Shown in pieces: positions 245 through 63,155 of a stretch of 64,000 nucleotides of DNA. Origin of the DNA: Liolophura sinensis. Lineage: Eukaryota > Mollusca > Polyplacophora > Chitonida > Chitonidae. The notes beneath the pieces are model-generated. The model did no database searches. It worked only from the letters and a program-made list of their open reading frames with translations, and was not told where the DNA came from. Both the position numbers and the translations under genes were made by a program. Each line of letters starts with the position of its first letter. Position 1 is the stretch's first letter. Location: contig NC_088304.1 in assembly GCF_032854445.1 (NCBI RefSeq), positions 6,707,704-6,771,703 on the forward strand, read 5' to 3'.

Positions 245-3200
245 AAACCCTCAAGGTAGAACAGGGATAATAGGCCGTGGCTTACTGGGGAAGTGGGGGC
301 CAAACCATGCCGCAGATCCTATTGTTACACGGTCAGTATTATAGTCAGTAGGCTGTGGCTTACTGGGGAATTGGGGGCCAAACCATGCCGCAGATCCTAT
401 TGTTACACGGTCAGTATTATAGTCAGTAGGCTGTGGCTTACTGGGGAATTGGGGGCCAAACCATGCCGCAGATCCTATTGTTACACGGTCTGTATTATAG
501 TCAGTAGGCTGTGGCTTACTGGGGAAGTGGGGGCCAAACCATGCCGCAGATCCTATTGTTACACGGTCAGTATTATAGTCAGTAGGCTGTGGCTTACTGG
601 GGAAGTGGGGGCCAAACCATGCCGCAGATCCTATTGTTACACGGTCTGTATTATAGTCAGTAGGCCGTGGCTTACTGGGGAAGTGGGGGCCAAACCATGC
701 CGCAGATCCTATTGTTACACGGTCTGTATTATAGTCAGTAGGCCGTGGCTTACTGGGGAAGTGGGGGCCAAACCATGCAGCAGATCCTATTGTTACACGG
801 TCAGTATTATAGTCAGTAGGCCTTGGCATACTGGGGAAGTGGAGGCCAAACCATGCAGCAGATCCTATTGTTACACGATCGGTATTATAGTCAGTAGGCC
901 GTGGCTTACTGGGGAAGTGGAGGCCAAACCATGCCGCAGATCCTATTGTTACACGGTCAGTATTATAGTCAGTAGGCCGTGGCTTACTGGGGAAGTGGGG
1001 GCCAAACCATGCAGCAGATCCTATTGTTACACGGTCAGTATTATAGTCAGTAGGCCGTGGCTTACTGGGGAAGTGGAGGCCAAACCATGCAGCAGATCCT
1101 ATTGTTACACGGTCTGTATTATAGTCAGTTGATCTCTTATTTAAATTTCGAGCCATTTGATTTTTTGATAAGTCAGTATAAAAAACACAAGATCCTGTAT
1201 CCTAGATGTGTCGTGTTTCTGTCCAGACTGGTTCTCTCCCCTTGGCGTCAGATGGGGCTAATCGCTTCATCCCAGATGAAATTTAGTATGTGAGTCAACC
1301 CGCACGTTTCATTTCCTTACAGTCAGAACTGTCCCGCTGTTGCAGAAGAGTTACCTTTCTGCGGTTTGAAATCCTCCCCACCCCCCCCCCATAAAATGGC
1401 AAACATAAAACAATCCAGGTGCAGCTTTTGTGAAGTAAACCTTTATGTACTAAATTCCTTATGATTAAAACTGAGGAAAACATGAACAGTTGGTGGCAGG
1501 AGCATAGACTGAAGTGAAGTGTGAGCTTGTTTATTTCATTCAGCGACTGTCCATATAATCCCGTGACCACCTCCGATGCTCTCCCGCCGTGCCCAGTCAG
1601 TAAGAACCACAATCCCAGGGTCCCAGGGTGAAACTTTAGGTCATTCACCATAAACCTGTACATGTATGTGATGTACATATCACTGTTACTTGTAGTTGAC
1701 GTAGTCTCATAAACTGTCATTAGTGGGTTGTTTATTTCTTTATTAGTCCAGCTTTTATGGTTGGAAAAGTTGTGAATTTGAGTTTTGAGGTACGGGTGGC
1801 AACCGTGTGCAGTATGAAGTAAATGATTTTGAATATGACATTAGCCACAAATCATAGTGAGTTCATATCAAATATTTTTTGTTTTAGATGGAAAAGAACA
1901 GCAAATGGGGACATCGCCGCAGACCGGGAGGGTAAAAATGTTCTGCAGATTGTTGTAGTCCAGAGAAGAGACACACATGAGTGGGCTTTACCAGGGGTAG
2001 GTTCAGGGGAGTTGGCACTTTGGAAACTATGGAGGATAGTCTGTGGTCCAGCCACATGCTCATTTGGCTATATAAACCAAATCTCACCACAACCAGTTGA
2101 CTCAGTGACCCAGTCGAGATCGCAGAATAGAATCCAGCTTTGGCTTGTTTGACTGCTGGTACAGCTTTATGTCAGGAGATTTGTAAGGCACAGATTACAC
2201 CAAGACATTCAAATTTCTCCCCCACCTTAGGCTGACCACCATTGTATAAAAGCAAAAATGGCTATATGATATGGCTGATATACAGTGAGTGTGGTATTCT
2301 TAAAACCACAGTCATTGATTCATTCTTATTTCTGTAGAGCATCTCACCATTGCGGTCACTGTGAGTTCAAGTCCAGCTCATGCTGGCTTCGTCTCCAGCC
2401 ATACGTGGGAAGGTCTAGCAGCAACCTGCGAATGGTCTTGTGTTTCCTCAGGCTCTGCCCGGTTTCCTCCCATTATAATGCTGGCCTCAGTCGTATAAGT
2501 GAAATATTCTTGAGTACGGCGTAAAACACTAATCAAACAAATAAATAAAACTGTAGAGCCTTAAACCCAATTTAACATATAAAGTAAACAGGCCTTCTTC
2601 TCTGGCTCAGGGAGCAGGTTTATTCCAATGCGTCATGCTTCATCAAACTACTTTTATTTTATTTTCCCTCTGTGTGACAGGGCATGGCTGATATTATGGA
2701 GCACATCTTAATCCACATGTATTTTCTTTTTTCTCTGTGTCACAGGGCATGGTTGATATCTTTGAGGAGCACATCTTAATCCACATGTATTTTCTTTTTG
2801 CTCTGTGTCACAGGGCATGGTTGATATTTTTGAGGAGCACATCTTAATCCACATGTATTTTCTTTTTGCTCTGTGTCACAGGGCATGGTTGATATTATTG
2901 GGGAGCACATTTTTATCCACATGTATTTTCTTTTTGCTCTGTGTCACAGGGCATGGTTGATATTTTTGAGGAGCACATTTTAATCCACATGTATTTTCTT
3001 TTTGCTCTGTGTCACAGGGCATGGTTGATATTATTGGGGAGCACATTTTTATCCACATGTATTTTCTTTTTGCTCTGTGTCACAGGGCATGGTTGATATT
3101 TTTGAGGAGCACATCTTAATCCACATGTATTTTCTTTTTGCTCTGTGTCACAGGGCATGGTTGATATTTTTGGGGAGGACATTTTAATCCACATGTATTT

Positions 3201-4576
3201 TCTTTTTGCTCTGTGTCACAGGGGATGGTTGATATTTTTGAGGAGGACATTTTAATCCACATGTATTTTCTTTTTGCTCTGTGTCACAGGGGATGGTTGA
3301 TATTTTTGAGGAGCACATTTTAATCCACATGTATTTTCTTTTTGCTCTGTGTCACAGGGCATGGTTGATATTTTTGAGGAGCACATTTTAATCCACATGT
3401 ATTTTCTTTTTGCTCTGTGTCACAGGGCATGGTTGATATTTTTGGGGAGCACATTTTAATCCACGTGTATTTTCTTTTTGCTCTGTGTCACAGGGCATGG
3501 TTGATATTGGGGAGCACATTTCAGTGACGTGCAAAAGAGAGTTCAGTGAAGAGGCCCTTAACTCCTTGCAAGCTGACCCGGTTGAGAAGAAGAAAATTGA
3601 GCAGTCTGTGGCAGCCCTGTTTCATGGGGGTAAAGAAGTAAGAGAACCTGATATTTTACCAAAAAATAATTGCAACAATATTGCTGATTACTGTTTGTAA
3701 TATTTGGAAAAGGGAAAACTTTATTTTGACTTCCTGTTTTACAGCAAAACTGAGCACTGATGATTTGAAAACTAAAGGTTGAATTATAGTGCCAGTAATA
3801 AATTCGTGCCGGTTTTAGATTATCCCTGATAAGTAGTCTTGTAGTTCTTCACCCATTTTGCATGTTTGCAAAATATTTATTCAAACATATTCTGAAGGGA
3901 ATTATTCTACGTTGATGAATAAAATTATACTTTTGGTATAGTTTTCAGCGCATAAATTGCACTGAAAGTTGCTCTTACCTATGCAGGAAGGTTGAGGAAT
4001 TTGAATACATGGTTGCACCTATATTGTAGATTTATAGAGGGTATGTGGATGACCCTAGGAACACTGACAATGCCTGGATGGAGACTGTGGCCTATAACTT
4101 CCATGATGCAGATGGCACAAGTGTCGGCAAGTTTAAACTAAACGCAGGTAAGTACACAGCCTCTGAACAACATGGAAATATATAGTAGGAAAAGCAAGAT
4201 TATTGCATTTTGACTCAGCATTTCAGAATTTTATTAAAATGTTGAAATGTCAAGCCAAAATAAAACCTTATTTTGTCTTTCTTCTTTTTGGTTTTTCTTT
4301 GAGTAAAACTACTTATGTATTAAGTTTAATTTGCACACACCAAATGACTCGTCACTGTCATATGACTAAAAATATTAAGTATGAAGATAAACACCGAGCA
4401 TGCTTGTACACACAGACATATATTGAAGCAGCGGTGCTAATGTCTGTCCGGTGTCTGTTGCAGGTGATGATGCTATGGGTGTTAACTGGATGGATGTGAG
4501 TCGTAACCTGAAACTGTATGCCAGTCATAACGACTTCGTCCGTCAGGTGGCCAGGTCACACAGTGCCAGCTGGTGA
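245..4576 (+). CDS. NUDT9: NUDT9-like ADP-ribose pyrophosphatase, 3' part of a spliced gene (5' exons outside window)
   Basis: Nudix hydrolase of the NUDT9/TRPM2-C-terminal family, which splits ADP-ribose into AMP and ribose 5-phosphate, in mitochondria in vertebrates. Exons by splice site and phase: 245-331, 1888-1996, 3494-3637, 4030-4147, 4464-4576 (stop TGA 4574-4576). The first carries the family signature [22 protein letters not shown]. The second ends in WALPG and joins the third (GMVDIGE...) to rebuild the Nudix box, with catalytic REFSEEA at about 3539-3559: Arg, both Glu and the Glu-Glu pair are present, with Ser where vertebrate NUDT9 has Gly. The fourth has [15 protein letters not shown], the last GDDA..VNWMD and LKLYASH. 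All five junctions agree in phase. Earlier exons, including any targeting peptide, lie before position 1. The exon and splice-site arrays inside two of its introns are listed separately. Confidence 0.93.
265..1130 (+). repeat. 78-bp minisatellite made of the NUDT9 exon 3' end plus its 5' splice site, 11 copies
   Basis: Eleven 78-bp units. Each has about 60 bp coding [18 protein letters not shown], then the donor gtcagt or gtctgt and a 17-bp linker ending in cag. Donors fall at 332, 410, 488 and every 78 bp to 1112. Only the first copy is attached to the authentic upstream half of the exon and a strong acceptor (poly-T then ccag at 241-244). Copies 2-11 start at the linker. Reading through a donor gives an in-frame TAG in the linker, so only the first donor yields an open message. 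Copies differ at a few codons (Arg to Cys or Leu, Lys to Asn, Gly to Arg). Because 78 is divisible by 3, long spurious frames stay open on both strands. Confidence 0.95.
2338..2552 (+). mobile_element. tRNA-derived SINE, family A, 5'-truncated, in a NUDT9 intron
   Basis: It contains a B-box-like GTGAGTTCAAGTCC, a middle part with CGGTTTCCTCCCATTATAATGC, and the family tail CTTGAGTACGGCGTAAAACA ending in an A/T-rich ATAAATAAA tract. The tRNA-like head is cut short. At least seven other copies of the same family lie in the window. Confidence 0.85.
2660..3493 (+). repeat. 68-bp minisatellite of decoy 3' splice sites copied from the NUDT9 Nudix-box exon, 12 copies
   Basis: Twelve units precede the true exon. 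Each contains a T-rich tract, the acceptor tgtcacag, and then GGCATGGTTGATATT..GAGCACAT, a near copy of the true exon start at 3494. Exon-like starts fall at 2681, 2746, 2814, 2882, 2950, 3018, 3086, 3154, 3222, 3290, 3358 and 3426. Spacing is exactly 68 bp from 2746 onward. The copied exon part is about 24 bp; the rest (tttaatccacatgtattttctttttgc) is intron-like. Since 68 is not divisible by 3, entering at a decoy shifts the next unit's frame and meets a stop (TAA in most units, TGA in the true exon from the last decoy). Only the acceptor at 3493 keeps the Nudix box open. Confidence 0.96.
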
Positions 4577-23000: not shown

Positions 23001-26000
23001 AAAAAACTAAAAGCAGAACTCCCTTTTTGTCATTCCAATTTCTCACCTTTAAAACATAACTTCTAAGCTCATATATATTTTTGGGAGGTCTTGGTTCAGG
23101 CTCGGGCCAGAAGCTGAAAGCCAGCATGATCTGATTACTGCGTGAACGTAACATCTTGTTCCTCCGTCTTCGAAATTCAATAAAATCCTACAACAGGCAG
23201 AAAAAAAATATATGATTCAAAACACACAGAACTGACTGACAATGAACTTTATTGAAAGAAGAAGATAGACGATCCCACATAACAGCATGATATCACAGTC
23301 ACGCTTGAGTGCACACTGTATTCTGTCCACAGTACCAATAATAATTAAATAATTATTTATTCAAAATACACGACACATGGCTTTTAACAATCTATGTTAT
23401 GATACTATTATTTTTCGTCACCACTGAAAACTGACAAATCTCATGCAAGAAACAATATACAAACAAAATCTTAGTTGTGATTCAATCAGCTAAATGTATG
23501 GAAAACCGACAAGTTTAAATGCAATTGCTAAGATGCACTGCAAACAGATTCTTGCACATGTCAAAGTAGCTGTAAGGAACTGGTGATGTGAAGCCAGTAC
23601 TGTAAAATCACACCTTCATCATGCATTTTTTCTTCTTGAAATTTGCCTTTTCTGTACTGACAGGAAGTTGTTCAAAGCTGGTTACAGATTTGAGGACAAT
23701 GCGGATACATGATGTTGTTTTCGCCCATGCACAATGTAAATGTAAGACAAAGATGGCATACAAGAAATTTGCAAAAAATGAAGTAGGTTGAACATTACTG
23801 GTTTAACAGCCACCAAATAACTCAGTGATTATTAACACATGTTAATAACAAATTCAACTATTAAAGCAAGACAAACTGACCTCATCAGTTCTGTAGATTA
23901 AATTGGCATTGTTGAGGACAGGGTAGCCTCCCTTATATGACCAGATGTGAACTGTAAGCAAACATAAATTGTGCATCAAAAGTCAAGACTTGGACAAGGT
24001 AGAAATAAAACTGAATTCAGAAAATGATGTTCAAACAATTACGCTTAACCATGGTAACATATCACATTCACTCAAACACAGCCAAGGCAAAATTTCTAAC
24101 AAAATCTAGTCTAATAAAACTTACATTAACCTGACAGAAGTTCCATTCATATTTGAAATGACAGCTATTTATTGGTTTGATGTGATTGACATCAAAAATG
24201 CACTGCACTAATAACACAATAAATATACCAGATAAAATAGCTGAAGTTCAGACATTGTCGGACATGTGAACATACACGCGCCAAATAACAGACAGGTACA
24301 GAAATGTGAACATACACGCGCCAAATAACAGACAGGTACAGAAATGTGAACATACACGCGACAAATAACAGACAGGTACAGAAATGTGAACATACACGCG
24401 ACAAATAACAAACAGGTACAGAAATGTGAACATACACGCGCCAAATAACAGACAGGTACAGAAATGTGAACATACACGCGCCAAATAACAGACAGGTACA
24501 GAAATGTGAACATACACGCGCCAAATAACAGACAGGTACAGAAAGGTGAACATACACGCGACAAATAACAGACAGGTACAGAAAGGTGAACATACACGCG
24601 CCAAATAACAGACAGGTACAGAAATGTGAACATACACGCGACAAATAACAGACAGGTACAGAAATGTGAACATACACGCGACAAATAACAGACAGGTTCA
24701 GAAATGTGAACATACACGCAACAAATAACAGACAGGTACAGAAAGGTGAACATACACGAGACAAATAACAGACAGGTACAGAAAGGTGAACATACACGCG
24801 ACAAATAACAGACAGGTACAGAAATGTGAACATACACGCAACAAATAACAGACAGGTACATAAATGTGAACCGTAATAACTGAACATAAGCAATAAACAG
24901 CCATGAACAAAAAGACGACAAAAACAGTCATAAACAGTAACAGACATGAACATAAACAAGACAAAAACAGACATGAACATAAAGAAGACAGAAACAGACA
25001 TAAACAAGAGACAAAACAGACAAGAACATAACAAGACAAAAAAAAAGACACGAACAGAAACACAACAAAAACAGACCTGAACATATCTAGACAACAGCTG
25101 ACTGACTTACTAGCTTGATCTTGGTCCCCAATCTCCACAGTAAAACTGCCAATCAAACAGGAACCCGTCTTTTTGTCATGCATCAACTGTTGAAACACTC
25201 CACTGCAAACAAAAGTGGAGAGACTGGCTGATTGACTGATTGATTTAATTACTGAGAGTTTCATAAACAAGGCCGAACTCGGAAAGAAACACAGGCAATA
25301 ACGCACGTAAGTTTACCCAGTGGATTGTCTAAAGAGTCTTTTTCATTTTTATTTGCTTGTTCAAGTTTGAAGCTTGTTCAAGCTACTGCTATAAAATAAA
25401 CTACATCTACTAATCATTTTTCTTTTAAATTACAGCCCGAGAAGATTTATGGGTGGAGGAAAGTGCCCGGAGTAAACCACCCACCTCTGTCAGCTACGTG
25501 ACAAATGTCATGACTTAAGACTGCTGTTGATACAAAAACGGATTTGAAAACACCACCTCATTGGTCAAGGCACTAACATTTGCAATGAGCCAGCACTTTT
25601 ACATTCTCATTGTGATAGCAAGGGCTCTCATTACAGGTTTAGCAGCAAGTAGCATGTCTGAGTTTATTTATTTATTTGATTGTTGTTTAATGCAATACTC
25701 AAAAAATGTTTGATTTCAAGAACAGTGACCAGTTTAATGGGTGGATGAAACCTAAGTACTCTAGAGAAAACCACAAACCTTTGGCAAGTTAGAGACAAAC
25801 TTTCGCACTGTCCAAACAGCCACACAAGTGTCACTGACCACTTTATGTCACCAAGACCTTTCTACAAATTGCAAAGCCCATGGCAAACCATCTTTACTAA
25901 CGGATCCGTTGCACATTTTGCAAACTTAAGAAAACAGCTTTTACTTACAAGTCTTTTAGATAGTCTTCCATGTATTCAGGTTTCACACAGTGAACTAAAA

Positions 26001-42984: not shown

Positions 42985-44150
42985 GCAAAATTTGCAGTAG
43001 AAACAAGCCTCGAAAGTGTCTTTAACTTCATTATAGATATAAGCCTCGGAAGTGTCTTTAAGTTCATTACATAGGCAAGCCTCGGAACTGTCTCTGACTT
43101 CATTACCGAGAGAGGCCTTGGAATTGTCTTTAAAAGACAAGCCTCGGACTGTCATTAGCTTAATTACAGAGACAAGCCTCGGAACTGTCTTTCACTTTAT
43201 TACAAAGACAAACCTCGGAACTGTGATTAGCTTAATTACAGAGATAGGCCTCGGAACTGTCTTTCACTTTATTACAAAGACAAACCTCGGAACTGTGATT
43301 AGCTTAATTACAGAGATAGGCCTCGGAACTGCCTTTAACTTTATTACAGAGAAAGGCCTCGGAACTGTCTTTCACTTTATTACAGAGACAAGCCCCGGAA
43401 CTGGCTTTAACTTCATTACAGAGGCAAGCCTCGGAACTGTCTTTAACTTCATTACAGAGGCAAGCCTCGGAACTGTCTTTAACTTCATTACAGAGATAGG
43501 CCTCGGAACTGCCTTTAACTTTATTACAGAGACAAGCCTCGGAACCGTCTTTAACTTCATTACAGAGATAGGCCTCGGAACTGTCTAACTTCATTACAAA
43601 TGCAAGCCTGGGAATGTCATTAGCTTAATTACAGAGACAGGCCTCGGAACTGTCTTTAACTTCATAACAGAGAAAGGCCTCGGAACTGTCTTTAACTTCA
43701 TTACAGAGATAGGCCTCAGAACTGTCTTTAACTTCATTACAGAGATAGGCCTCGGAACTGTCTTTAACTTCATTACAGAGGCAGGCCTCGAAATTGTATT
43801 CAACTTCATTACAGAGATAGGCCTCGGAACTGTCTTTAACTTCATTACAGAGAGAGGCCTCGGAATTGTCTTTAACTTCATTACAGAGATAGGCCTCGGA
43901 ACTGCCTTTAACTTTATTACAAAGACAAGTCTCGGAACTGTCTTTAACTTCATAACAGAGAAAGGCGTCGGAACTGTCTTTAACTTCATTACAGAGATAG
44001 GCCTCGGAACTGTTTTTAACTTCATTACAGAGACAGGCCTCGGAACTGTCTTTAACTTCATTACAGAGAAAGGCCTCGGAATTGTCTTTAACTTTATTAC
44101 AAAAACAAGCCTCGGAACTGTCTTTAACTTCAAAATACAGAGACAAGCTT
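42985..44150. repeat. 36-bp satellite (GGCCTCGGAACTGTCTTTAA core), about 32 copies
   Basis: Units of 36 bp, for example CATTACAGAGATAGGCCTCG plus GAACTGTCTTTAACTT, run over 1.1 kb with small substitutions. Thirty-six bp equal 12 codons, so frames stay open on both strands (plus 43052-43588 reading LGTVFNFITEI; minus 43594-44170 reading MKLKTVPR and NEVKDSSEAYLC). No start context, splice site or domain suggests a real protein. Confidence 0.96.
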
Positions 44151-47222: not shown

Positions 47223-49694
47223 CTATGGACGCGCCATCACCTCAAGTAACCTGTCCCAGAATACCGGCTCGTCAACTTGTTCGTTATCCCACAACAGAAA
47301 TGTGATGTGTTTCCACAGATTTAGTAGCGATCTTGGCATTTCTGCCACAGGGATCTCTTCCATCATGATCACAATAATGGCGTTCTCACGACCATCTCTC
47401 ACCATGCGCATGCCCGCCATTTGAATTTCAAACTCACACCAGTCACTGGTCAGGAAGGCTCTGCTGATCACCAGGATGACCTTCCGACTGTTGTTGACGG
47501 CGTCCACAATGTTCTGTTGTATGCTGACACCCACGGGGAAATCACGATCATGGAGGCACAGAGTGTAATTGTTCTCATTCTCTAGGACGTTTCTCAGAAC
47601 AATGCAGGCCCACTGGTAGTTGTGGTAATTATACGCTACAAACGCCTCATACTGAAATTGTTCAATTTCTATTTCCTCATACACAGGCCCTCTTCGGCAT
47701 TTGGTTAAAATCCAATATTTAATATTCCATCTATATCTGTACCCGAATATCCCCAGGACTACGGCCAGAGTGAATAAGCACGATCCAACAACGGAAAATG
47801 TCAACCAAAATTTGCTGACACAACTGACGTCCATGTTCTTTATGTGAGATTTGTAGCTCCATATGTTTGTAACAGTTCCATTTTTCAGGGTGCAAGACAG
47901 AGAACCATTGTCTGTAATATTAACCGAGGCCTCCAAAATCCAGTGAATGAATGTTAGCGTATTGCAGGTGCACAGGAAAGGGTTGTGTCCCAAAGACAGA
48001 CTTAACGTCTTACCGTGTGTTGACGTTGGCCAGCTACTGAGCCGGTTGATTTCCTCAGAAGATAACGACGAAATTACATTAAATGTCAAATCTAGCTCCT
48101 TAAGTGAATGTAAATGTAACACTGATTCTGGGATTTGAATGAACTTATTGTTCCCGAGAAGCAAAGTTTCCAGGGTAATCAGAGGTTTAAATAAGTTTTT
48201 ATGTAAGGTGGTAAGATCGTTGTTGGAAAGATCAAGTTGTCGTAATTTTTTCATTGGACGGAATACGATACCGTTAGGGTCGTTTTGAAATCCAATGTTT
48301 AGTTTACAATTTCTGGCACTGAGAATTTCCAATAAAGGAAAAGCCTCAAAAAAACTTGGTGACAGACCGCTGCAGTCAAAGCCTGACATGTTAAATAGCG
48401 CCAGATTCTGTAAACCAGAAATTCGAAACGCACAGTACTGGATCCCGAAGTATGCCATATCAATCACACGGAGATTTTCAGCGTTAACTAAGTCAATGTC
48501 AGGCAAATATAAATTACGGCCGCCCATGTACTTCGCTATTAATACTTCTAACTGTGGAGGAAGGATTGCGTGTACCTTAATTGTTCCACTCCGTTTTGCG
48601 ATACTATGTCGTTCTGTAGCGACTGGTAATGAAGTCGAAAAAACGTTCCTCTCTCTTCGTAATGCCGTATACTGGGCACTGAACTCCAAGTGTTTTAGAT
48701 TGATAAAACGATATACGCCTAAAAAGTTGTATATGTTATTAGAAATTGACAGAAGATTATCGTTCATAACAAACGTTTCAATACAATCGGGATAAAGGAA
48801 GTGTAACAGAAAGTCACCGTTGACCAACATAATTTTATTGCCCGACAAATCCAGGTGTTTTACACACATTGTATCCAGGTGAGCAGTCATGTTGGCAGTA
48901 AGGATGAGGTTTTCTGGATTAAGTCTGCCCCCTCTATTCTTGTTTGTCCCCACGATAGAGAGTGATGTCAGATTCCGCCATCGGAGATCCACTAGAGCAG
49001 ATAAGGTTCTTCCTAATCCATCGGTACGCATGTTCAATGTTGTTAAAAACGGGAAATGTTTTAACGTCCCTGGTTCCATGCCTAAGCACACTATCCTCAA
49101 AGTTTCAATGGACATGTTTGCAAACACAGCGAAAGTGTGTGTGTTGAGTGTGACCTGCATAGTATTGTCAATTACATGCAGAGACTTCAGTGAAGACAGA
49201 TGCAAAAAACCGGATCCAAAAGAGACATTTCTCAGGCCGTCGATTCTCAATTCTTTCAGAGAACTGAGACCATTAAAGATTTGCTCGGGATATCTACCGA
49301 TTTCTGAATATGGGTTCCGAAGATTCTTTTCTAATGCCAAAGCCTCTAACTTTTGCAGGGGTCTGAAAACACCAACAGGGTAAGCTTCATAAGTAAGAAG
49401 CAGATTATTTTCACTCAGTCTGAGAGTGGAGAGCCTTGACAATCCCCTGAAAGCTGACGGTTCTAACTTCTCCAGCCGGTTACCTGACAGATCCAGACTG
49501 GTCAAGGCGCTCAGGTTGATGAAGGAGTCATTGGGTATGGTTTTCAGCAGGTTGTCGCTCAAGTCCAAGCTTGCTATTGTTGACGTGATGTTGGTTGGTA
49601 CCTTCCTCAGCCGGTGATTATGAAGATCAACATGGCGTCCTTCCGCGTTGGTGTGTACGAAGATGATTGTGACAGTAATGAGTTGAGCAATCAT
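47223..49694 (-). CDS. Toll-like receptor, intronless, copy 1
   Basis: Membrane receptor of innate immunity, 823 residues in one exon. The start is the ATG at 49694, which begins a signal peptide (MIAQLITVTIIFVHTNAEG); the tandem copy supports this because it has an in-frame TAA just upstream. About residues 25-570 are leucine-rich repeats (LDLSDNLLKTIP, LDLSGNRL, LDLSNNDL). A single C-terminal cysteine cap follows (LCTCN..., residues about 571-628), then one transmembrane helix (about 629-652) and a TIR domain (about 682-823) with box 1 YEAFVAY, box 2 HDRDFPVG and box 3 FWDRLL. One cysteine cluster beside the membrane makes it a single-cysteine-cluster TLR. TIR domains pass signals to MyD88-type adaptors in other animals. 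The BB loop reads DFPVG where many TLRs have D-x-x-P-G. It is paralogous to 60529-63000; a specific TLR number is not assignable. Confidence 0.97.
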   Translation of the reverse strand: MIAQLITVTIIFVHTNAEGRHVDLHNHRLRKVPTNITSTIASLDLSDNLLKTIPNDSFINLSALTSLDLSGNRLEKLEPSAFRGLSRLSTLRLSENNLLLTYEAYPVGVFRPLQKLEALALEKNLRNPYSEIGRYPEQIFNGLSSLKELRIDGLRNVSFGSGFLHLSSLKSLHVIDNTMQVTLNTHTFAVFANMSIETLRIVCLGMEPGTLKHFPFLTTLNMRTDGLGRTLSALVDLRWRNLTSLSIVGTNKNRGGRLNPENLILTANMTAHLDTMCVKHLDLSGNKIMLVNGDFLLHFLYPDCIETFVMNDNLLSISNNIYNFLGVYRFINLKHLEFSAQYTALRRERNVFSTSLPVATERHSIAKRSGTIKVHAILPPQLEVLIAKYMGGRNLYLPDIDLVNAENLRVIDMAYFGIQYCAFRISGLQNLALFNMSGFDCSGLSPSFFEAFPLLEILSARNCKLNIGFQNDPNGIVFRPMKKLRQLDLSNNDLTTLHKNLFKPLITLETLLLGNNKFIQIPESVLHLHSLKELDLTFNVISSLSSEEINRLSSWPTSTHGKTLSLSLGHNPFLCTCNTLTFIHWILEASVNITDNGSLSCTLKNGTVTNIWSYKSHIKNMDVSCVSKFWLTFSVVGSCLFTLAVVLGIFGYRYRWNIKYWILTKCRRGPVYEEIEIEQFQYEAFVAYNYHNYQWACIVLRNVLENENNYTLCLHDRDFPVGVSIQQNIVDAVNNSRKVILVISRAFLTSDWCEFEIQMAGMRMVRDGRENAIIVIMMEEIPVAEMPRSLLNLWKHITFLLWDNEQVDEPVFWDRLLEVMARP

Positions 49695-49859
49695 GTCTAA
49701 CACTCCAAAATACGCTGTAAAAAGCCTTTGTATAGTGACTACCCAGAAACGGTTCCGATCTTCTTTAATCAAACTACGAACGTATTAAATAAGATACCGG
49801 GCAAACCTTGCTGTCAACAGTAGATGAATACTTATGTCGATTAGAAATATTTAGAAATA

Positions 49860-52399: not shown

Positions 52400-55300
52400 C
52401 TTGTCACCCTGAAAAGATAATTAGTAGTTATCAAATTTACAGACAAATCAAAGAATAACGATGATAACAGAACCTATTGAATTTGGTGACGCCCTTAAGG
52501 TGGCTAATATAGTGGCTAACAGAATCTCTTACTTCTTGTGACAAGAAATACTACCAAATAAAATATTTGAGTTCTGTTGGTTTGTGGATTTAAAAGAGTC
52601 GCCACTGATTGTTGTTGCACAGCTAAAATCGAAAGCCGTCTTAATATGTCATTACGAATCTGTCCACAATATGGACACCGAAGTAAAAGATGATCGATAG
52701 TTTCTAAAACATTGCGGTGGTTACAAAACCCCGTGGGAGGCTTTTCAATTCTACAGAAATAAAACTTCAAGGGAACGTGACCCGACTGCAATCTCATTAA
52801 AAACACTTGTTGTAACCTTCCCTTCACTGACACCCAAGCATTTCTTACTGTAGGAAACAAACTGTAGTAAAATCTACCTTTGGCACCATTTTCCCATTCC
52901 TGCTGCCGCATTTCCTAAAACTGTTTTCGATAAACACTAAACATTTCCGATACAGACATATTTACAGGGATATCTATACCACTTTTCGTATACGCTGCTT
53001 TCGCCAACCGATCCGCCCTCTCGTTCCCTTCAATATTACTGTGGCCTGGAATCCACTCAAGGCAGACGTGAATGTTCTGATAGAATAGATAAGTAAAACA
53101 GTGTAGTATCTCAAGTACAACATTGTTAGCATTTCTCCCAGAATGGTTGATCAGAGCAAATAACGTACTTAGAGAGTCAGTAAATATTACACATTTGAAG
53201 GGACGAAATTCTTCTACAAATTTTAACGCCACCAAGATAGCAACTAATTCGGAGGTGAAGACAATAACATGATAAGATAGACGGTGAGACTTTTCATATT
53301 TTATTTCAGGGACACAGAATGCTGCGGATGTTTTTCCAGATTCTGGAAATTTCGACCCATCTGTGTAATTGTGGAGATAATCATACCAGGTCGAATATGA
53401 TCCTTAGCACACAATTCTGTATTTTTGATAGGGTCAGATTTCCTTACTTTCGAATGGAGTTTTGTAGATATAAAAGGAGGCCTCAGCTTCCATGGAGGGA
53501 ATGGAAATCTTGCTTCCTTTTGGACAATTTACTCATCAAGCTGCAATTCATCTCGAGTGGATTGAGAGCGAACACTCAATGTTTCTTGGTCTTTGACTTT
53601 CAATTTTTCTAATAGTCCAGAATGCCAAGTCACAGTTAAAACATCAGAGGCAGGATTATTATGACTTGTTAACAAAGACAAATAATACTTAAAACTTGTC
53701 ATTTTCTGTCTAATCCATAATGGGAGTTGACCTGTTGTTACCTTCAGTACCTGTAATGGGGTAGTCCTCATTAACCCAGTACATATACGTAAAGCCTGGT
53801 CCGTGTATAGAGCCAAGCCTCATCTTCAGTGTACGAGAGGCAGACAACTCCGCTCCATAATCCAACATAGATTTAATCAAAGATTTATACAGTTTACCCA
53901 TTGCATTTCTACCCTCCCCCAAGAAGTGCCAGACACACTTTTCATCAGATGAATTGCTGACTGGCATTTGGCCACCACTCCATCAATATGATTCTTCCAC
54001 GTAAGCTTAGCATCAAAAGCCATACCAAAAAATTTGAAATACTGGGTGTATGTAATATTGTAATCTGCCCCTTTTAATGATATATCACATGTGATTTTCG
54101 TTTTAGTAAATAACAGGGCTCCTGACTTAGAAGAGGAAAATTAAAAACCCCATAGCTTTCCCCGCTGAAAAATATTTGATACAGTAATATTAATGACTTT
54201 CACTACATGTTTCAGATTTCTTTTCGCAAACCAGACGGTCTTATCATCTGCAAATAAGGACCTTGTTGACACTGGATGGTACAGACTCAGGAAGGTCATT
54301 TATCATAACATTAAACAGTGTAGGTGATATAACGCTGCCTTGGGGTGTTTCGTTTGTGATAGCTACTTTTTTGGATAGACAAGAACCAAATCTCACTGGA
54401 TAACTCTGTCCGATAAGAAACTTTTGATCCACCCAAACATACGTTCATCTATACCATTTTACTTAGTTTAAACAACAATGCTTTTTCTACATGTAAGGAA
54501 AACAGCTACAAGGTATTCTTTGTTAGCTAACGCACACTGAATTGAATGTTCTAGATGAATTAAATGGTCTAAGGTTCTCCTACCTTCTCTGAAGCCACTC
54601 TGAACCGATGATATTATACTTTTACTTTCTAACTACCACAGCAGCCTGTAGTTAACCATCTTCTCCATTACCTTACAAATACAGGACGTCAGTGCAATGG
54701 GGCGGTAAGAAAGAAGATGGCTGTAACGCGGGCTTACCGGGTTTACACACCGGTACTACTACCGCATGTTTCCATGATAATGGTAAGGTCATCTTCATCC
54801 ACACAGAATTAATAAGCATTAAAATGAGATTTAAAAAATTATCTGGCATATTTTTCAACATGGTGTACCCAATTCCATCCAGGCCAGGGGGGTGACTCTT
54901 TTGTCTGCCGAAGTGCCCCCTTAAGTTCTTGAAGAGAAAATTCATCATTATTAGGCAATTCATCGAAGCAAACGTTTTGATATATATGGTCATTCTCTAG
55001 CTCAAATTTACTCTTATGTTCAAGAAATTCAGGGTCATAATTAGCGTCATTGCAGCAAAAGACTCAGCCAGGAGGTCACTTTTTTCTCGTTCGTAATAGC
55101 ATTGACGTTATCCTTAACAAGCGCTGGAATAGAGAAACCTTTACTCTGGCCTTTGCATCAGTACACTCAGTATTCCAATACGGTACGGGCTGTTTCTGTT
55201 GGTATTTACCTGCCGTCCGAGGAATGGTTTCATTAGCTATTGACGTTATTGCAGAAATAACATTATCATTAAATATATCAACATTGTCATTAGCAACTTC

Positions 55301-57450
55301 CTGCACTGAGACAGACAAACATTTGCTGCGGAATAACCCCCAGTTTACTTTTTTCATATTCCATCTAAGTGGATGCCTATATCACTGAATTTTGGTGTTA
55401 CCCGAACATCAATGATAACTGGGTAGTGGTCACTCCCACAACAGTTGTTCTGATCAGCCGATCATGACAGATCAGACGATATGTCAAGTGAGGATAACGT
55501 GAGATCTAACGGGGTTAATTCCCCTGACATTGGATTAAACCGTGTTCCAGTTCCATCATTATGAATAACCAAATCATATTTCTCTATAATATTTTCAACC
55601 AGTTTTCCATATGAATCATTAATTTTCCCACCCCAAACCAAACTGTGTGCAATGAAGTCACCACATATAATAATACTTGCGGAAACAGCTGAAAATATTT
55701 TGTCAAAATCTGCCATACTCAGTTTGTTACATGGGTTATACAAATTCAATAAAGTAACTTTTCTGGACATAGAGAAAATCTCTATTCCACAGCACTCTAT
55801 CGAACTCAGCTGCGGCAATTCTATTTCCCTATACACCAGGCCGTTTTTAATAAAGCCAAGCCCCCATGGTTGTTAAAATTGGTCTTGTTACATGCCGCAA
55901 CGAAATATACCTTGGGATATTATATTTTAGCTTAGGTTTGACAAATGTTTCCTGCACATATAAAATGTCAGGTGGTTTGGTCTAACTTACAAATAAACTG
56001 TTTGAACTCTTGTCCGTGTGCAACAAGACTCATTATTTTATATAATAGATACTGGACAATAGAGAGTCCCACCAAAAGGTAGATTATTAGCTGTAGGTTG
56101 TACTTAAACATTGTGGCTATCTTTACTCAACATCAAATTTAAATTATCAATATTTATACTGTGGCCGAGGTGTCTTTTTGGCGTACCGGACTAATGACTA
56201 TTGACTTGTCAATTCTGCTAACAGATTTCGAACAATCATAAATCATCTCAAGCACAAAGTCCAGAAACTTGTCTAAAGAAAGGTTGAGATATTCAGTCTG
56301 TATAGCGACTGCACAAGTTTTCACTGGCAGAGAGCAGCTTATAGGGGTGAGAACAGGTGTTGGACCAAGTTTGCCGAGCACGGCATTTCTTGCATTTTCT
56401 CCACTGGCTCGATCCACGGGCTGAACATTTCCATTTTGTAACCTAGAATGTACTGTAGGCGCACATTCTGCTAGATTTGCATTTTCTAAAGAATTCTCTT
56501 GAGATGTGCCAAGATTGCTTTTACCTCATGCCGCACAACTTCCACGCTTCTGAATAGGAGATTTTTCTCACTGTTTTCACGTACTGCACTTTCGTCGCCT
56601 CTCGCCTTGCTGGGCAAGCCCCACAACTTGTACTTTGTGCCCCCAGACCATTACTACATTTTGGAGTCTCTTTATTTGTACAGTTTTCATACGTATGGTT
56701 TCACCACAGCAGCGACATTTTGTTTTGGACCGCAGTGTTTGGAAACATGGACCATATAGTTGACAATTATAACACCGTATAACTGGTGGAATAAACTGTT
56801 TAACATTGAAGGACTGACAACAGATGTGGACCCGCCAAGCCCAAAAACAATACCAGCAATATAGAAGTAGACGGTTCTCTTTCTTTACCTTTGTTAGCCT
56901 TTTTGCTTCTACAACATTTTGTGACTTCAATGCTTTAACTATGTCTTTTTCAGTTGTTTCCACATCAACACCATATAAACCCCTTCACACTGCGAGGCAG
57001 GCTTAGGTGGGGAGCACACAACATTTACGCCAGCAAGAAGTGTGACACAACAGAGCTGAACAGCTTGTAGGGGGGATTTACATCGAATAAGCAGATCTCA
57101 TCCTGATAGTTTTTAACGCATTCAACGTCGCCGATTTTTATGTGAACATCTTTACCTAACTTTATCAAGTTGACTTTCTAAATCGGAGTCTGCCCTGGTA
57201 ATGACTTTTGGATTTTCACAGGCTACTTTTGGTTGTTTTGTTTTTTTCTTTTTTTTTGCAGAGTGACCGCTATTTGCGTCGCTATCACGTTCAGAGTTAC
57301 TGGACGAGGTTGGGTTACTTGAGGAGCGATCTTTTCTTTTTCTAGATACTTCTTGGTAGTCCCATACACTCTCGACACTTTGGAAACACTCCATTTCCCC
57401 TCCGAAGCCATGCCGGAGACTGAAAATGGGGAAAAGATATACGGGAGGAA
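52400..57450 (-). mobile_element. Decayed non-LTR retrotransposon with RNase H (I-like superfamily)
   Basis: Read on the minus strand in order. An ORF1 region (57450-56150) has a basic Ser/Lys-rich N-terminus and a CCHC-like knuckle (CYNCQLYG, then CRCCGE; one knuckle residue looks mutated). An ORF2 region follows: endonuclease at 55836-55462 (GDFIAHSLVWGG), linker at 55357-55076, reverse transcriptase at 54993-54200 (PPGLDGIGYTML, TPQGSVISPTLFNVMINDLP, and LFADD in a shifted frame), RNase H at 53235-52915 (FTDSLSTLFAL, WIPGHSNIEGNERADRLAK) and a cysteine/histidine tail at 52911-52516 (CNHRNVLETIDHLLLRCPYC). An RNase H after the RT and a CCHC ORF1 fit the I/Nimb/Loa group. Many frameshifts and stops: this copy is dead. 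It separates the TLR pseudogene from TLR copy 2. Confidence 0.9.
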
Positions 57451-60528: not shown

Positions 60529-63000
60529 CTAAGGACGCGCCATCACCTCAAGTAACCTGTCCCAGAATTCCGGCTCGTCAGCTTGTTCGTTATCCCACAG
60601 AAGAAATGTGATGTGTTTCCACAGATTTAGTAGCGATCTTGGCATTTCTGCCACAGGGATCTCTTCCATCATGATCACAATAATGGCGTTCTCACGACCA
60701 TCTCTCACCATGCGCATGCCCGCCATTTGAATTTCAAACTCACACCAGTCACTGGTCAGGAAGGCTTTGCTGATCACCAGGATGACCTTCCGACTGTTGT
60801 TGACGGCGTCCACAATGTTCTGTTGTATGCTGACACCCACGGGGAAATCACGATCATGGAGGCACAGAGTGTAATTGTTCTCATTCTCTAGGACGTTTCT
60901 CAGAACAATGCAGGCCCACTGGTAGTTGTGGTAATTATACGCTACAAACCCGTCAAACTGAAATTGTTCAATTTCTATTCCCTCATACACAGGCCCTCTT
61001 CGGCATTTGGTTAAAATCCAATATTTAATATTCCATCTATATCTGTACCCGAATATCCCCAGGACTACGGCCAGAGTGAATAAGCACGATCCAATAACGG
61101 AAAATGTCAACCAAAATTTGCTGACACAACTGACGTCCATGTTCTTTATGTGAGAATTGTAGCTCCATATGTTTGTAACAGTTCCATTTTTCAGGGTGCA
61201 AGACAGAGAACCATTGTCTGTAATATTAACCGAGGCCTCCAAAATCCAGTGAATGAATGTTAGCGTATTGCAGGTGCACAGGAAAGGGTTGTGTCCCAAA
61301 GACAGACTTAACGTCTTACCGTGTGTTGACTTTGGCCAGCTACTGAGCCGGTTGATTTCCTCAGAAGATAACGACGAAATTACATTAAATGTCAAATCTA
61401 GCTCCTTAAGTGAATGTACATGTAACACTGATTCTGGGATTTGAATGAATTTGTTATTCCCGAGAAGCACAGTTTCCAGGGTAATCAGAGGTTTAAATAA
61501 GTTTTTATGTAAGGTGGTAAGATCGTTGTTGGAAAGATCAAGTTGTCGTAATTTTTTCATTGGACGGAATACGATACCGTTAGGGTCGTTTTGAAATCCA
61601 ATGTTTAGTTTACAATTTCTGGCACTGAGAATTTCCAATAAAGGAAAAGCCTCAAAAAAACTTGGTGACAGACCGCTGCAGTCAAAGCCTGACATGTTAA
61701 ACTGCTCCAAATTCTGTAAACCAGAAATTCGAAACGCACAGTACTGGATCCCGAAGTATGCCATATCAATCACACGGAGATTTTCAGCGTTAACTAAATC
61801 AATGTCAGGTAAATATATATTACGGCCGCCAATGTATTTCGCTATTAATACTTCTAACTGTGGAGGGAGAACTACGTGTACCTTAATTGTTCCACTCCGT
61901 TTCGTGCGACTATATCGTTCTGTAACGACTGGTAATGAAGTCGAAAAAACGTTCCTCTTTCTTCGTAATGCCGTATACTGGGCACTGAACTCCAAATGTT
62001 TTAGATTGATAAAACGATATACGCCTAAAACGCTGTATATGTTATTAGAAACTGACAGAAGATTATCGATCATGACAAATGTTTCTATACAATCGGGATA
62101 ATGAAAGTCTAACAGCACGTCACCGTTCACCAGTATAATTTTATTGCCCGACAAATCCAGGTGTTTTACACACATTGTAGCCAGGTGAGCAGTCATGTTG
62201 GTAGTAAGGATGAGGTTTTCTGGATTAAGTCTGCCCCCTCTATTCTCGTTTGCCCTGACGATAGAGAGTGATGTCAGGTTCCGCCATCGGAGATCCACCA
62301 GAGCAGATAAAGCTCTTCCTAATCCATCGGTGCGCATGTTCAATGTTGTTAAAAACGGGAAATGTTTTAACGTCCCTGGTTTCATGCCTAAGCACACTAT
62401 CCTCAAAGTTTCAATGGACATGTTTGCAAACACAGCGAAAGTGTGTGCGTTGAGTGTGACCTGCTTATTATCGTCAATTACATACAGGGACTTCAGTGAA
62501 GACAGATGCAAAAAACCGGATCCAAAAGAGACATTTCTCAGGCCGTCGATTCTCAATTCTTTCAGAGAACTGAGACCACTAAAGATCTGCTCGGGATATT
62601 CACCGAGTTCTGAATATGGGTTCCGGAGATTCTTTTCTAATGCCAAAGCCTCTAACTTTTGCAGGGGTCTGAAAACACCAACAGGGTAAGCTTCATAAGT
62701 AAGAAGCAGATTATTTTCACTCAATCTGAGAGTGGAGAGCCTTGACAATCCCCTGAAAGCTGACGGTTCTAACCTCTCCAGCCGATTACCTGACAAATCC
62801 AGACTGGTCAAGGCGTTCAGTTTGATGAAGGAGTCATTGGGTATGGTTTTCAGCAGGTTGTCGCTCAAGTCCAAGCTCTCTGTTGTTGACGGGATGTTGG
62901 TTGGTACCTTCCTCAGCCGGTGATTATGAAGATCAACATGGCGTCCTTCCGCGTTGGTGTGTACGAAGATGACTGTGACAGTAATGAGTTGAGCAATCAT
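60529..63000 (-). CDS. Toll-like receptor, intronless, copy 2
   Basis: Same architecture and exactly the same length (823 residues) as the receptor at 47223-49694: signal peptide MIAQLITVTVIFVHTNAEG, leucine-rich repeats, one C-terminal cysteine cap, a transmembrane helix and a TIR domain. The start is fixed by an in-frame TAA a few codons upstream of the ATG at 63000. By eye about 60 residues differ from copy 1, roughly three quarters of them in the N-terminal half (LRRs), whereas the last ~420 residues differ at only about 14. In the TIR, box 1 is FDGFVAY instead of YEAFVAY; DFPVG and FW are kept. The matching upstream flank (to about 63360) shows that the duplication included the promoter. 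Confidence 0.97.
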   Translation of the reverse strand: MIAQLITVTVIFVHTNAEGRHVDLHNHRLRKVPTNIPSTTESLDLSDNLLKTIPNDSFIKLNALTSLDLSGNRLERLEPSAFRGLSRLSTLRLSENNLLLTYEAYPVGVFRPLQKLEALALEKNLRNPYSELGEYPEQIFSGLSSLKELRIDGLRNVSFGSGFLHLSSLKSLYVIDDNKQVTLNAHTFAVFANMSIETLRIVCLGMKPGTLKHFPFLTTLNMRTDGLGRALSALVDLRWRNLTSLSIVRANENRGGRLNPENLILTTNMTAHLATMCVKHLDLSGNKIILVNGDVLLDFHYPDCIETFVMIDNLLSVSNNIYSVLGVYRFINLKHLEFSAQYTALRRKRNVFSTSLPVVTERYSRTKRSGTIKVHVVLPPQLEVLIAKYIGGRNIYLPDIDLVNAENLRVIDMAYFGIQYCAFRISGLQNLEQFNMSGFDCSGLSPSFFEAFPLLEILSARNCKLNIGFQNDPNGIVFRPMKKLRQLDLSNNDLTTLHKNLFKPLITLETVLLGNNKFIQIPESVLHVHSLKELDLTFNVISSLSSEEINRLSSWPKSTHGKTLSLSLGHNPFLCTCNTLTFIHWILEASVNITDNGSLSCTLKNGTVTNIWSYNSHIKNMDVSCVSKFWLTFSVIGSCLFTLAVVLGIFGYRYRWNIKYWILTKCRRGPVYEGIEIEQFQFDGFVAYNYHNYQWACIVLRNVLENENNYTLCLHDRDFPVGVSIQQNIVDAVNNSRKVILVISKAFLTSDWCEFEIQMAGMRMVRDGRENAIIVIMMEEIPVAEMPRSLLNLWKHITFLLWDNEQADEPEFWDRLLEVMARP

Positions 63001-63155
63001 GTCTAACACTCCAAAATACGCTGTAAAAAGCCTTTAAATAGTGACCACCCAGAAACGGTTCCGATCTTCTTTAATCAAACCACGAACGCATCAAATAAGA
63101 TACTGGACAAACCTTGCTGTCAACAGTAGATGAATTCTTAAGTCGATTAGAAACA

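Follow-up and report, generated by a model that had tools for sequence, protein, structure and literature searches.

Tandem arrays across splice junctions in a NUDT9 gene and other gene families of the chiton Liolophura sinensis

How can an exon be spliced correctly when its acceptor is preceded by a dozen close copies of itself? This question is raised by a NUDT9 gene located at the beginning of a stretch of 64,000 nucleotides (hereafter the window) from the chiton Liolophura sinensis (NC_088304.1, positions 6,707,704 to 6,771,703). An original prediction had described twelve tandem decoy acceptors before the Nudix-box exon of this gene and had suggested that their number or use could tune the amount of functional enzyme, in an arrangement without known precedent. 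The decoys are there, but neither a device special to NUDT9 nor the novelty of the arrangement was upheld. A second array, overlooked at first, lies at a donor of the same gene, and comparable arrays were found in unrelated gene families. It seems probable that both NUDT9 arrays are tolerated minisatellites of the type called 'mirage' in amphioxus, in which the exon-proximal site is used and the products of the decoys decay.

Two junction arrays in one gene

The gene is encoded on the plus strand. Its third exon (exon C, 3494-3637) carries the Nudix box and opens after the true acceptor CAG/GGC, the slash marking the junction. Tandem Repeats Finder (TRF) delimits an array at 2655-3508 on the same strand (68 bp x 12.6, 95% matches); its score of 1512 leaves chance no room, and the acceptor array is confirmed as real. 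It contains 13 acceptors, namely the true one at 3494 and twelve decoys whose first exon bases are 2681, 2746, 2814, 2882, 2950, 3018, 3086, 3154, 3222, 3290, 3358 and 3426. Each unit joins about 38 nt of intron end, with a polypyrimidine tract and CACAG, to about 30 nt of the start of exon C, so an intron-exon junction has indeed turned into a minisatellite; TTAAT in the unit is a possible branch point. The array is somewhat less regular than first described. The supposedly exact spacing of 68 bp is found in 11 of the 12 intervals, the first one being 65 bp, and the motif tgtcacag, announced for each copy, precedes 12 of the 13 acceptors, the first having tgtgacag. The exon-like part is present as claimed, at about 30 bp instead of 24, and a 3-bp insertion interrupts the likeness in 11 of the 12 decoys. 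Since this insertion is missing from the first copy and from the true exon alone, the edges appear to be excluded from homogenization: it is the usual sign of interior copies that were homogenized and edge copies that escaped, judged here from the insertion and in the acceptor array only.

AG is intact in all twelve decoys, and the 13 acceptors score between 11.75 and 12.7 bits, against a mean of 9.1 for the sites on which the matrix was trained (50 acceptors of this genome, themselves sampled sites scoring >5 bits). A premature stop follows each decoy, as predicted, and only the last acceptor yields an intact Nudix enzyme. The stop had been placed in the next unit in every case; this holds for ten of the twelve decoys (after 96-99 nt), and those at 2814 and 2950 reach it one unit further (after 144 nt). 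Microexons between the acceptor units were considered and rejected: a donor-like GTATTT is present, but the remaining intron would measure only 27 nt.

The donor of exon A (245-331, 29 protein letters) is affected by a second array, at 271-1129 on the plus strand (78 bp x 11.0, 97% matches), that the original prediction had missed. In each unit, 61 nt from the end of exon A are followed by 17 nt of intron. Downstream of the true donor (ACG/GTCAGT, at 332) lie ten decoy donors at 410, 488, 566, 644, 722, 800, 878, 956, 1034 and 1112, nine of which keep GT, the one at 878 being mutated to AT. The use of any of them leads to an in-frame TAG. With 2.2 bits the true donor is a weak site, matched in score by several decoys. 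The two arrays are mirror images: the productive copy comes first at the donor and last at the acceptor, and in both cases it adjoins the body of the exon.

Could such arrays result from errors of assembly or from collapsed haplotypes? The genome is heterozygous (1.24%, according to the available parts of the genome paper) and either haplotype may in reality have another number of copies than the assembly. Yet the assembly was built from HiFi reads whose mean length of 8,347 bp, taken from the same source, far exceeds the 854 bp of the acceptor array, the array copies carry private variants, and similar arrays recur at the sampled exon ends described below. An artifact is thus extremely improbable. 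The acceptor unit was matched at its own locus only, in a search that may miss common words.

The arrays could also mark a NUDT9 copy that has lost its function, a view to which two arrays in a single gene and the weak donor of exon A would lend themselves. The coding sequence speaks against it. Exons A and C were aligned to 1q33, and exons A, B (1888-1996, the latter its last exon base, with donor GGG/GTAGGT at 1997), C, D (4030-4147) and E (4464-4576, with stop codon TGA) form a continuous frame of 189 amino acids up to the stop, without internal stop or frameshift and with GT/AG at every splice site. The product matches PF00293 and its Nudix box, whose motif is GX5EX7REFXEE, is complete. 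No other stand-alone NUDT9 was found in the genome, in searches that may miss matches. The gene is intact over the exons seen, and its decay is very unlikely.

The identification as NUDT9 was borne out: the best solved relative of the product is 1q33 (E 9.4e-72, query residues 1-189), which outranks the TRPM2 channels and which we take to be human NUDT9, an ADP-ribose pyrophosphatase. None of the 25 LSDAT and 19 TRPM2-domain matches listed lies on contig C10 (weak matches may be missed), whereas the other NUDT9-like matches (C8 at 46.7 Mb, C1 at 75.3 Mb and C8 at 16.9 Mb) have TRPM2-domain matches on their own strand at a distance of 15-26 kb. From this distribution, the window gene would most likely be a stand-alone NUDT9 and the others the NUDT9-H domains of TRPM2-like channels. 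One of the TRPM2-like genes, L010 (G000:C8:46720000-46729800), has a donor array at the exon that corresponds to exon B (104 bp x 3.5, L010:1466-1824); no array was found at the matched exon ends of the NUDT9-like L011 and L012. At the L010 locus, about 4 kb separate the NUDT9-H exons of two TRPM2-like genes of opposite orientation. Two more open frames with NUDT9-like sequence were recognized by eye upstream in L009 (7052-7330 and 7786-7953).

Frequency of junction arrays in other gene families

The frequency of such arrays was estimated on exon matches of four families. The first sample, named beforehand, comprised the myosin head (PF00063) and the kinase domain (PF00069), with 101 exon matches from 80 loci, taken together with about 450 bp of flanking sequence at either end. 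The second comprised CCT (PF00118) and kinesin (PF00225), with 100 exon matches from 25 loci. Altogether, 201 of the 401 listed matches were used, mostly shorter ones resembling single exons; the second sample favored clusters of close exons, which may lower its array count. The criterion for counting was fixed after the first sample had been seen and before the second. Arrays were retained when TRF reported a period of at least 10 and a score of at least 50 across an exon end.

Such end-crossing arrays numbered 23 among the 201 matches, and 18 of them (12 at donors, 6 at acceptors) were splice-site arrays with at least one intact decoy GT or AG; the remaining five, namely those in L018, L043, L104 and L115 and one of 27 bp in L097, were excluded from this count. 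Once a kinesin match that is itself an array copy is left out (L105, 3472-3594), the rate is 18 per 400 exon ends (200 exon matches). All four families contribute, with 6/56 in myosin, 5/45 in the kinases, 4/32 in CCT (three of them in a single gene, L097) and 3/67 in kinesin. In 17 of the 18 arrays the decoys share at least 70% identity with the true site across 24 nt; the acceptor array of L028 has 13 decoys at least 62% identical over 32 nt, next to a true acceptor of -0.2 bits. Splice-junction arrays are thus common in this chiton and not special to NUDT9. Because the ends of the matches are not always exon ends, true junctions may carry arrays at a higher rate. A strict scoring of boundaries in the first sample kept 90 of 202 exon ends, six of which were spanned, all of them donors.

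A single dinucleotide shuffle of 206,862 background bases from the samples (not from the window) gave no array with a period of at least 10, against 126 TRF rows in the real sequence. The presence of similar arrays in four unrelated families, CCT included, rules out an origin specific to NUDT9. Spread from a dispersed repeat family is ruled out as well, each unit being found at its own locus only in a search that skips common words.

Two of the sampled genes deserve a separate description. The CCT gene L097 (G000:C8:53403943-53412782) has three splice-junction arrays, two at donors and one at an acceptor, and the 66-bp unit of one donor array is open in frame, so that its six decoys would lengthen the protein instead of truncating it. 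In the kinesin gene L105 (G000:C11:27411237-27415130), a 73-bp unit (TRF period 219) is repeated along 2 kb and supplies 26 decoy donors, of which 23 have GT, and one copy of the array still scores as a kinesin exon.

The position of the arrays relative to the junctions depends on how it is measured. TRF arrays cover about 2% of exon interiors, 4.6% of the final 30 bp of the exon matches, 6.6% of the 30 bp that follow and 15-16% at an intron depth of 240-399 bp. By coverage there is no enrichment of arrays at junctions, the value being lower there than deeper in the intron. The ends of the arrays are considered below with the other results that bear on neutrality.

Known mirages and the choice between identical sites

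The impression that no similar case had been described does not stand. In amphioxus, 'mirage' minisatellites have been reported in Adh3, in the globins BflGb6 and BflGb9 and in TnC, as well as in an imperfect form in PGBD5; the primary report is that of Canestro and others (2002). According to the available passages, a mirage can sit at the 5' as well as at the 3' boundary, length is polymorphic, also somatically, and regular splicing is reportedly left undisturbed, reverse transcription PCR having been carried out (PMC3087553, PMC3902484). Like these minisatellites, both NUDT9 arrays have units that span an exon-intron boundary and mostly keep the splice signal (in 12/12 decoy acceptors and 9/10 decoy donors), and one array lies at a donor and the other at an acceptor. 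The exclusion of array edges from homogenization described for BflGb6 (PMC3087553) also has its counterpart in the edges of the NUDT9 acceptor array that lack the interior 3-bp insertion, a comparison made without a tree and for that array only. Unlike L. sinensis, amphioxus is a chordate and not a mollusc, the copy numbers quoted for it are lower, BflGb6 having 6 and 3 units, and the passages known to us contain no genome-wide count of its mirages.

Human cases are known too. A minisatellite reported by Turri in 1995 provides, by its title, multiple splice donor sites, and is compared here by that title alone; it concerns donors and not acceptors. In intron 18 of ABCA7, a variable number tandem repeat (VNTR) of 25 bp begins with the GT of the exon 18 donor, which makes each unit a possible decoy donor. 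In the accessible parts of that work, retention of one unit amounts to 2 +/- 1%, causes a frameshift and is independent of VNTR length, while skipping of exon 19 grows with length and constitutes its main effect. Unlike the NUDT9 arrays, this repeat starts at the donor GT and contains no exon sequence, and its alleles are far longer, with up to about 427 repeats. A further human example is PMC2812944, presumably the 2009 study of De Grassi and Ciccarelli. Internal tandem repeats at exon-intron boundaries are there said to change splicing in genes of segmental duplications, with 27 intron modifications; in the passages available, they belong to recent paralogs and vary between them. No array of this kind in a mollusc and no genome-wide rate was seen in the titles and abstract beginnings of the matches listed from the open-access literature. 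The kind of array is therefore known, and what is new is its molluscan host, the presence of two mirages in one gene and the estimate of frequency.

These precedents lead us to favor the following scenario. A short segment across the junction of intron 2 and exon C would have been duplicated in tandem and would have expanded into the intron, and the same would have happened at the donor of exon A. Such arrays may arise often because the introns of this genome are rich in minisatellites, and may persist because the authentic junction is left intact. By analogy with the amphioxus mirages and ABCA7, the spliceosome would mostly pick the exon-proximal site, because exon definition favors the shortest exon (144 nt, against at least 212 nt from a decoy) together with the neighboring exon sequences; occasional use of a decoy would place a premature stop in the transcript, which would then be degraded. 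Tolerance is supported by the whole set of decoys. The 18 surveyed arrays and three of NUDT9-like genes (21 arrays) contain 155 decoys, and the dinucleotide is kept in 147: 140 of these lead to a premature stop, six are open in frame, all in the CCT array with the 66-bp unit, and one shifts the frame. Most intact decoys are thus truncating, yet the host genes include CCT chaperonins.

Several results weigh against this tolerated, neutral interpretation. The twelve decoy acceptors of NUDT9 are as strong as the true one, so that strength alone cannot explain the choice of acceptor, and this choice is deduced from sequence. Among the 18 true sites of the survey, nine, all donors, reach 5 bits, the six acceptors scoring between -0.5 and 2.6 bits, for which reason some exon ends are placed less surely; several low-scoring acceptors, for example those of L038 and L057, open by eye into recognizable protein sequence. 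The density of array ends that face the exon is 14 per 12,000 bp in the terminal 30 bp of the exon matches, versus 54 per 146,974 bp in the intron. The ratio is 3.2 (nominal one-sided p 0.0005), with 3.2 in the first sample and 3.3 in the second; two of the 14 ends (L043 and L104) are intronic once the true acceptor is placed and two others (L018 and L115) are doubtful. This hints at an approximately threefold enrichment at junctions, beyond purely random placement.

The last of these results concerns the decoys themselves, whose GT/AG is not purged. Copies were realigned array by array in 19 of the 21 arrays (146 copies), L038 and L092 being left out with fewer than three decoys. This replaced unaligned comparisons, which overstate retention by counting as changes positions that are shifted in register or lie beyond the array. 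Of 292 decoy GT/AG cells, 7 deviate from the consensus of their array, where random adjacent pairs of the same units would give 21.0 (P 0.007), and the result is similar without the NUDT9-like arrays (6/244 against 19.1, P 0.007). Counted by variable columns, the figures are 7/38 against 11.9 expected (P 0.051). GT and AG dinucleotides elsewhere in the units deviate from the consensus in 77 of 1,118 cases. The comparison suggests retention of the decoy signals, beyond what pure neutrality predicts, in a sample biased by the picking of decoys for their likeness to the true site and by the omission of arrays without decoys.

Could the decoys then be kept by selection as a rheostat, their number setting the productive share of NUDT9 transcripts? 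The full strength and intact AG of all twelve decoy acceptors, the premature stop behind every NUDT9 decoy and decoy signals with roughly a third of the changes seen at other positions (19 arrays) would agree with it, as would the altered splicing and expression that accompany VNTR length in ABCA7. However, similar arrays exist in unrelated gene families, the amphioxus mirages reportedly do not disturb splicing, the one-unit retention of ABCA7 does not follow length, and the retention signal comes from the biased sample just described. The arrays are not evidence for a switch in NUDT9; a rheostat is unsupported, and we judge it unlikely. In a broader version, several percent of the exon ends of this chiton would bear stacks of decoys, many of them at full strength and with GT/AG kept by selection. 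These stacks, variable in length, would control splicing across the genome by fixing the productive share of mRNA in each gene, NUDT9 with its donor stack and its acceptor stack being one example; this appears quite improbable.

Lastly, the decoy units could serve as a source of new exons or introns. Mirage units have been proposed as material for intron gain in the amphioxus globins (PMC3087553), and the CCT array with six in-frame open decoys could fit such a model. In NUDT9, every decoy reaches a stop and the intron between units would measure 17 nt at the donor array and less than 40 nt at the acceptor array, lengths too short for splicing between units. This explanation is hardly credible for the present arrays. 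Tolerated mirages thus remain the probable explanation of both.

Other sequences of the window and significance of the arrays

The intron between exons B and C of NUDT9 also contains, at about 2330-2550, an element like a short interspersed nuclear element (SINE) that ends in a short A-rich repeat and that we take to resemble mollusc SINEs. Further minisatellites are found in the window at 24264-24871 (40 bp x 15.2) and 42999-44145 (36 bp x 32.2). On the minus strand, two long, near-alike open frames (47223-49784 and 60529-63033) with leucine-rich repeats and a TIR-like C-terminal part are, by eye, probably tandem Toll-like receptor genes. Fragments resembling retrotransposons without long terminal repeats lie between them on the same strand (52516-53403 and 55462-56984), with RNase H-like, endonuclease-like and zinc knuckle-like parts, also recognized by eye. 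The assembly of L. sinensis, first published as L. japonica, consists of 632 scaffolds and 609.5 Mb with 28,010 predicted protein-coding genes; the word 'tandem' has no occurrence in the accessible main text of the genome paper. For another chiton genome, the available passages state that TRF marks 9.21%.

The amphioxus 'mirage' is here extended to a mollusc. Should the sample be representative, the junctions that carry runs of decoys would number in the thousands in this single animal, with CCT, kinesin, kinase and myosin genes among their hosts. Such a genome would make it possible to study, in a natural setting and on a large scale, by what rules the spliceosome picks one of several identical sites and what load of aberrant splicing is tolerated. 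There is also a warning for annotation, as exon ends in such genomes may be misplaced by whole repeat units. The unexpected abundance of these arrays merits a genome-wide count.

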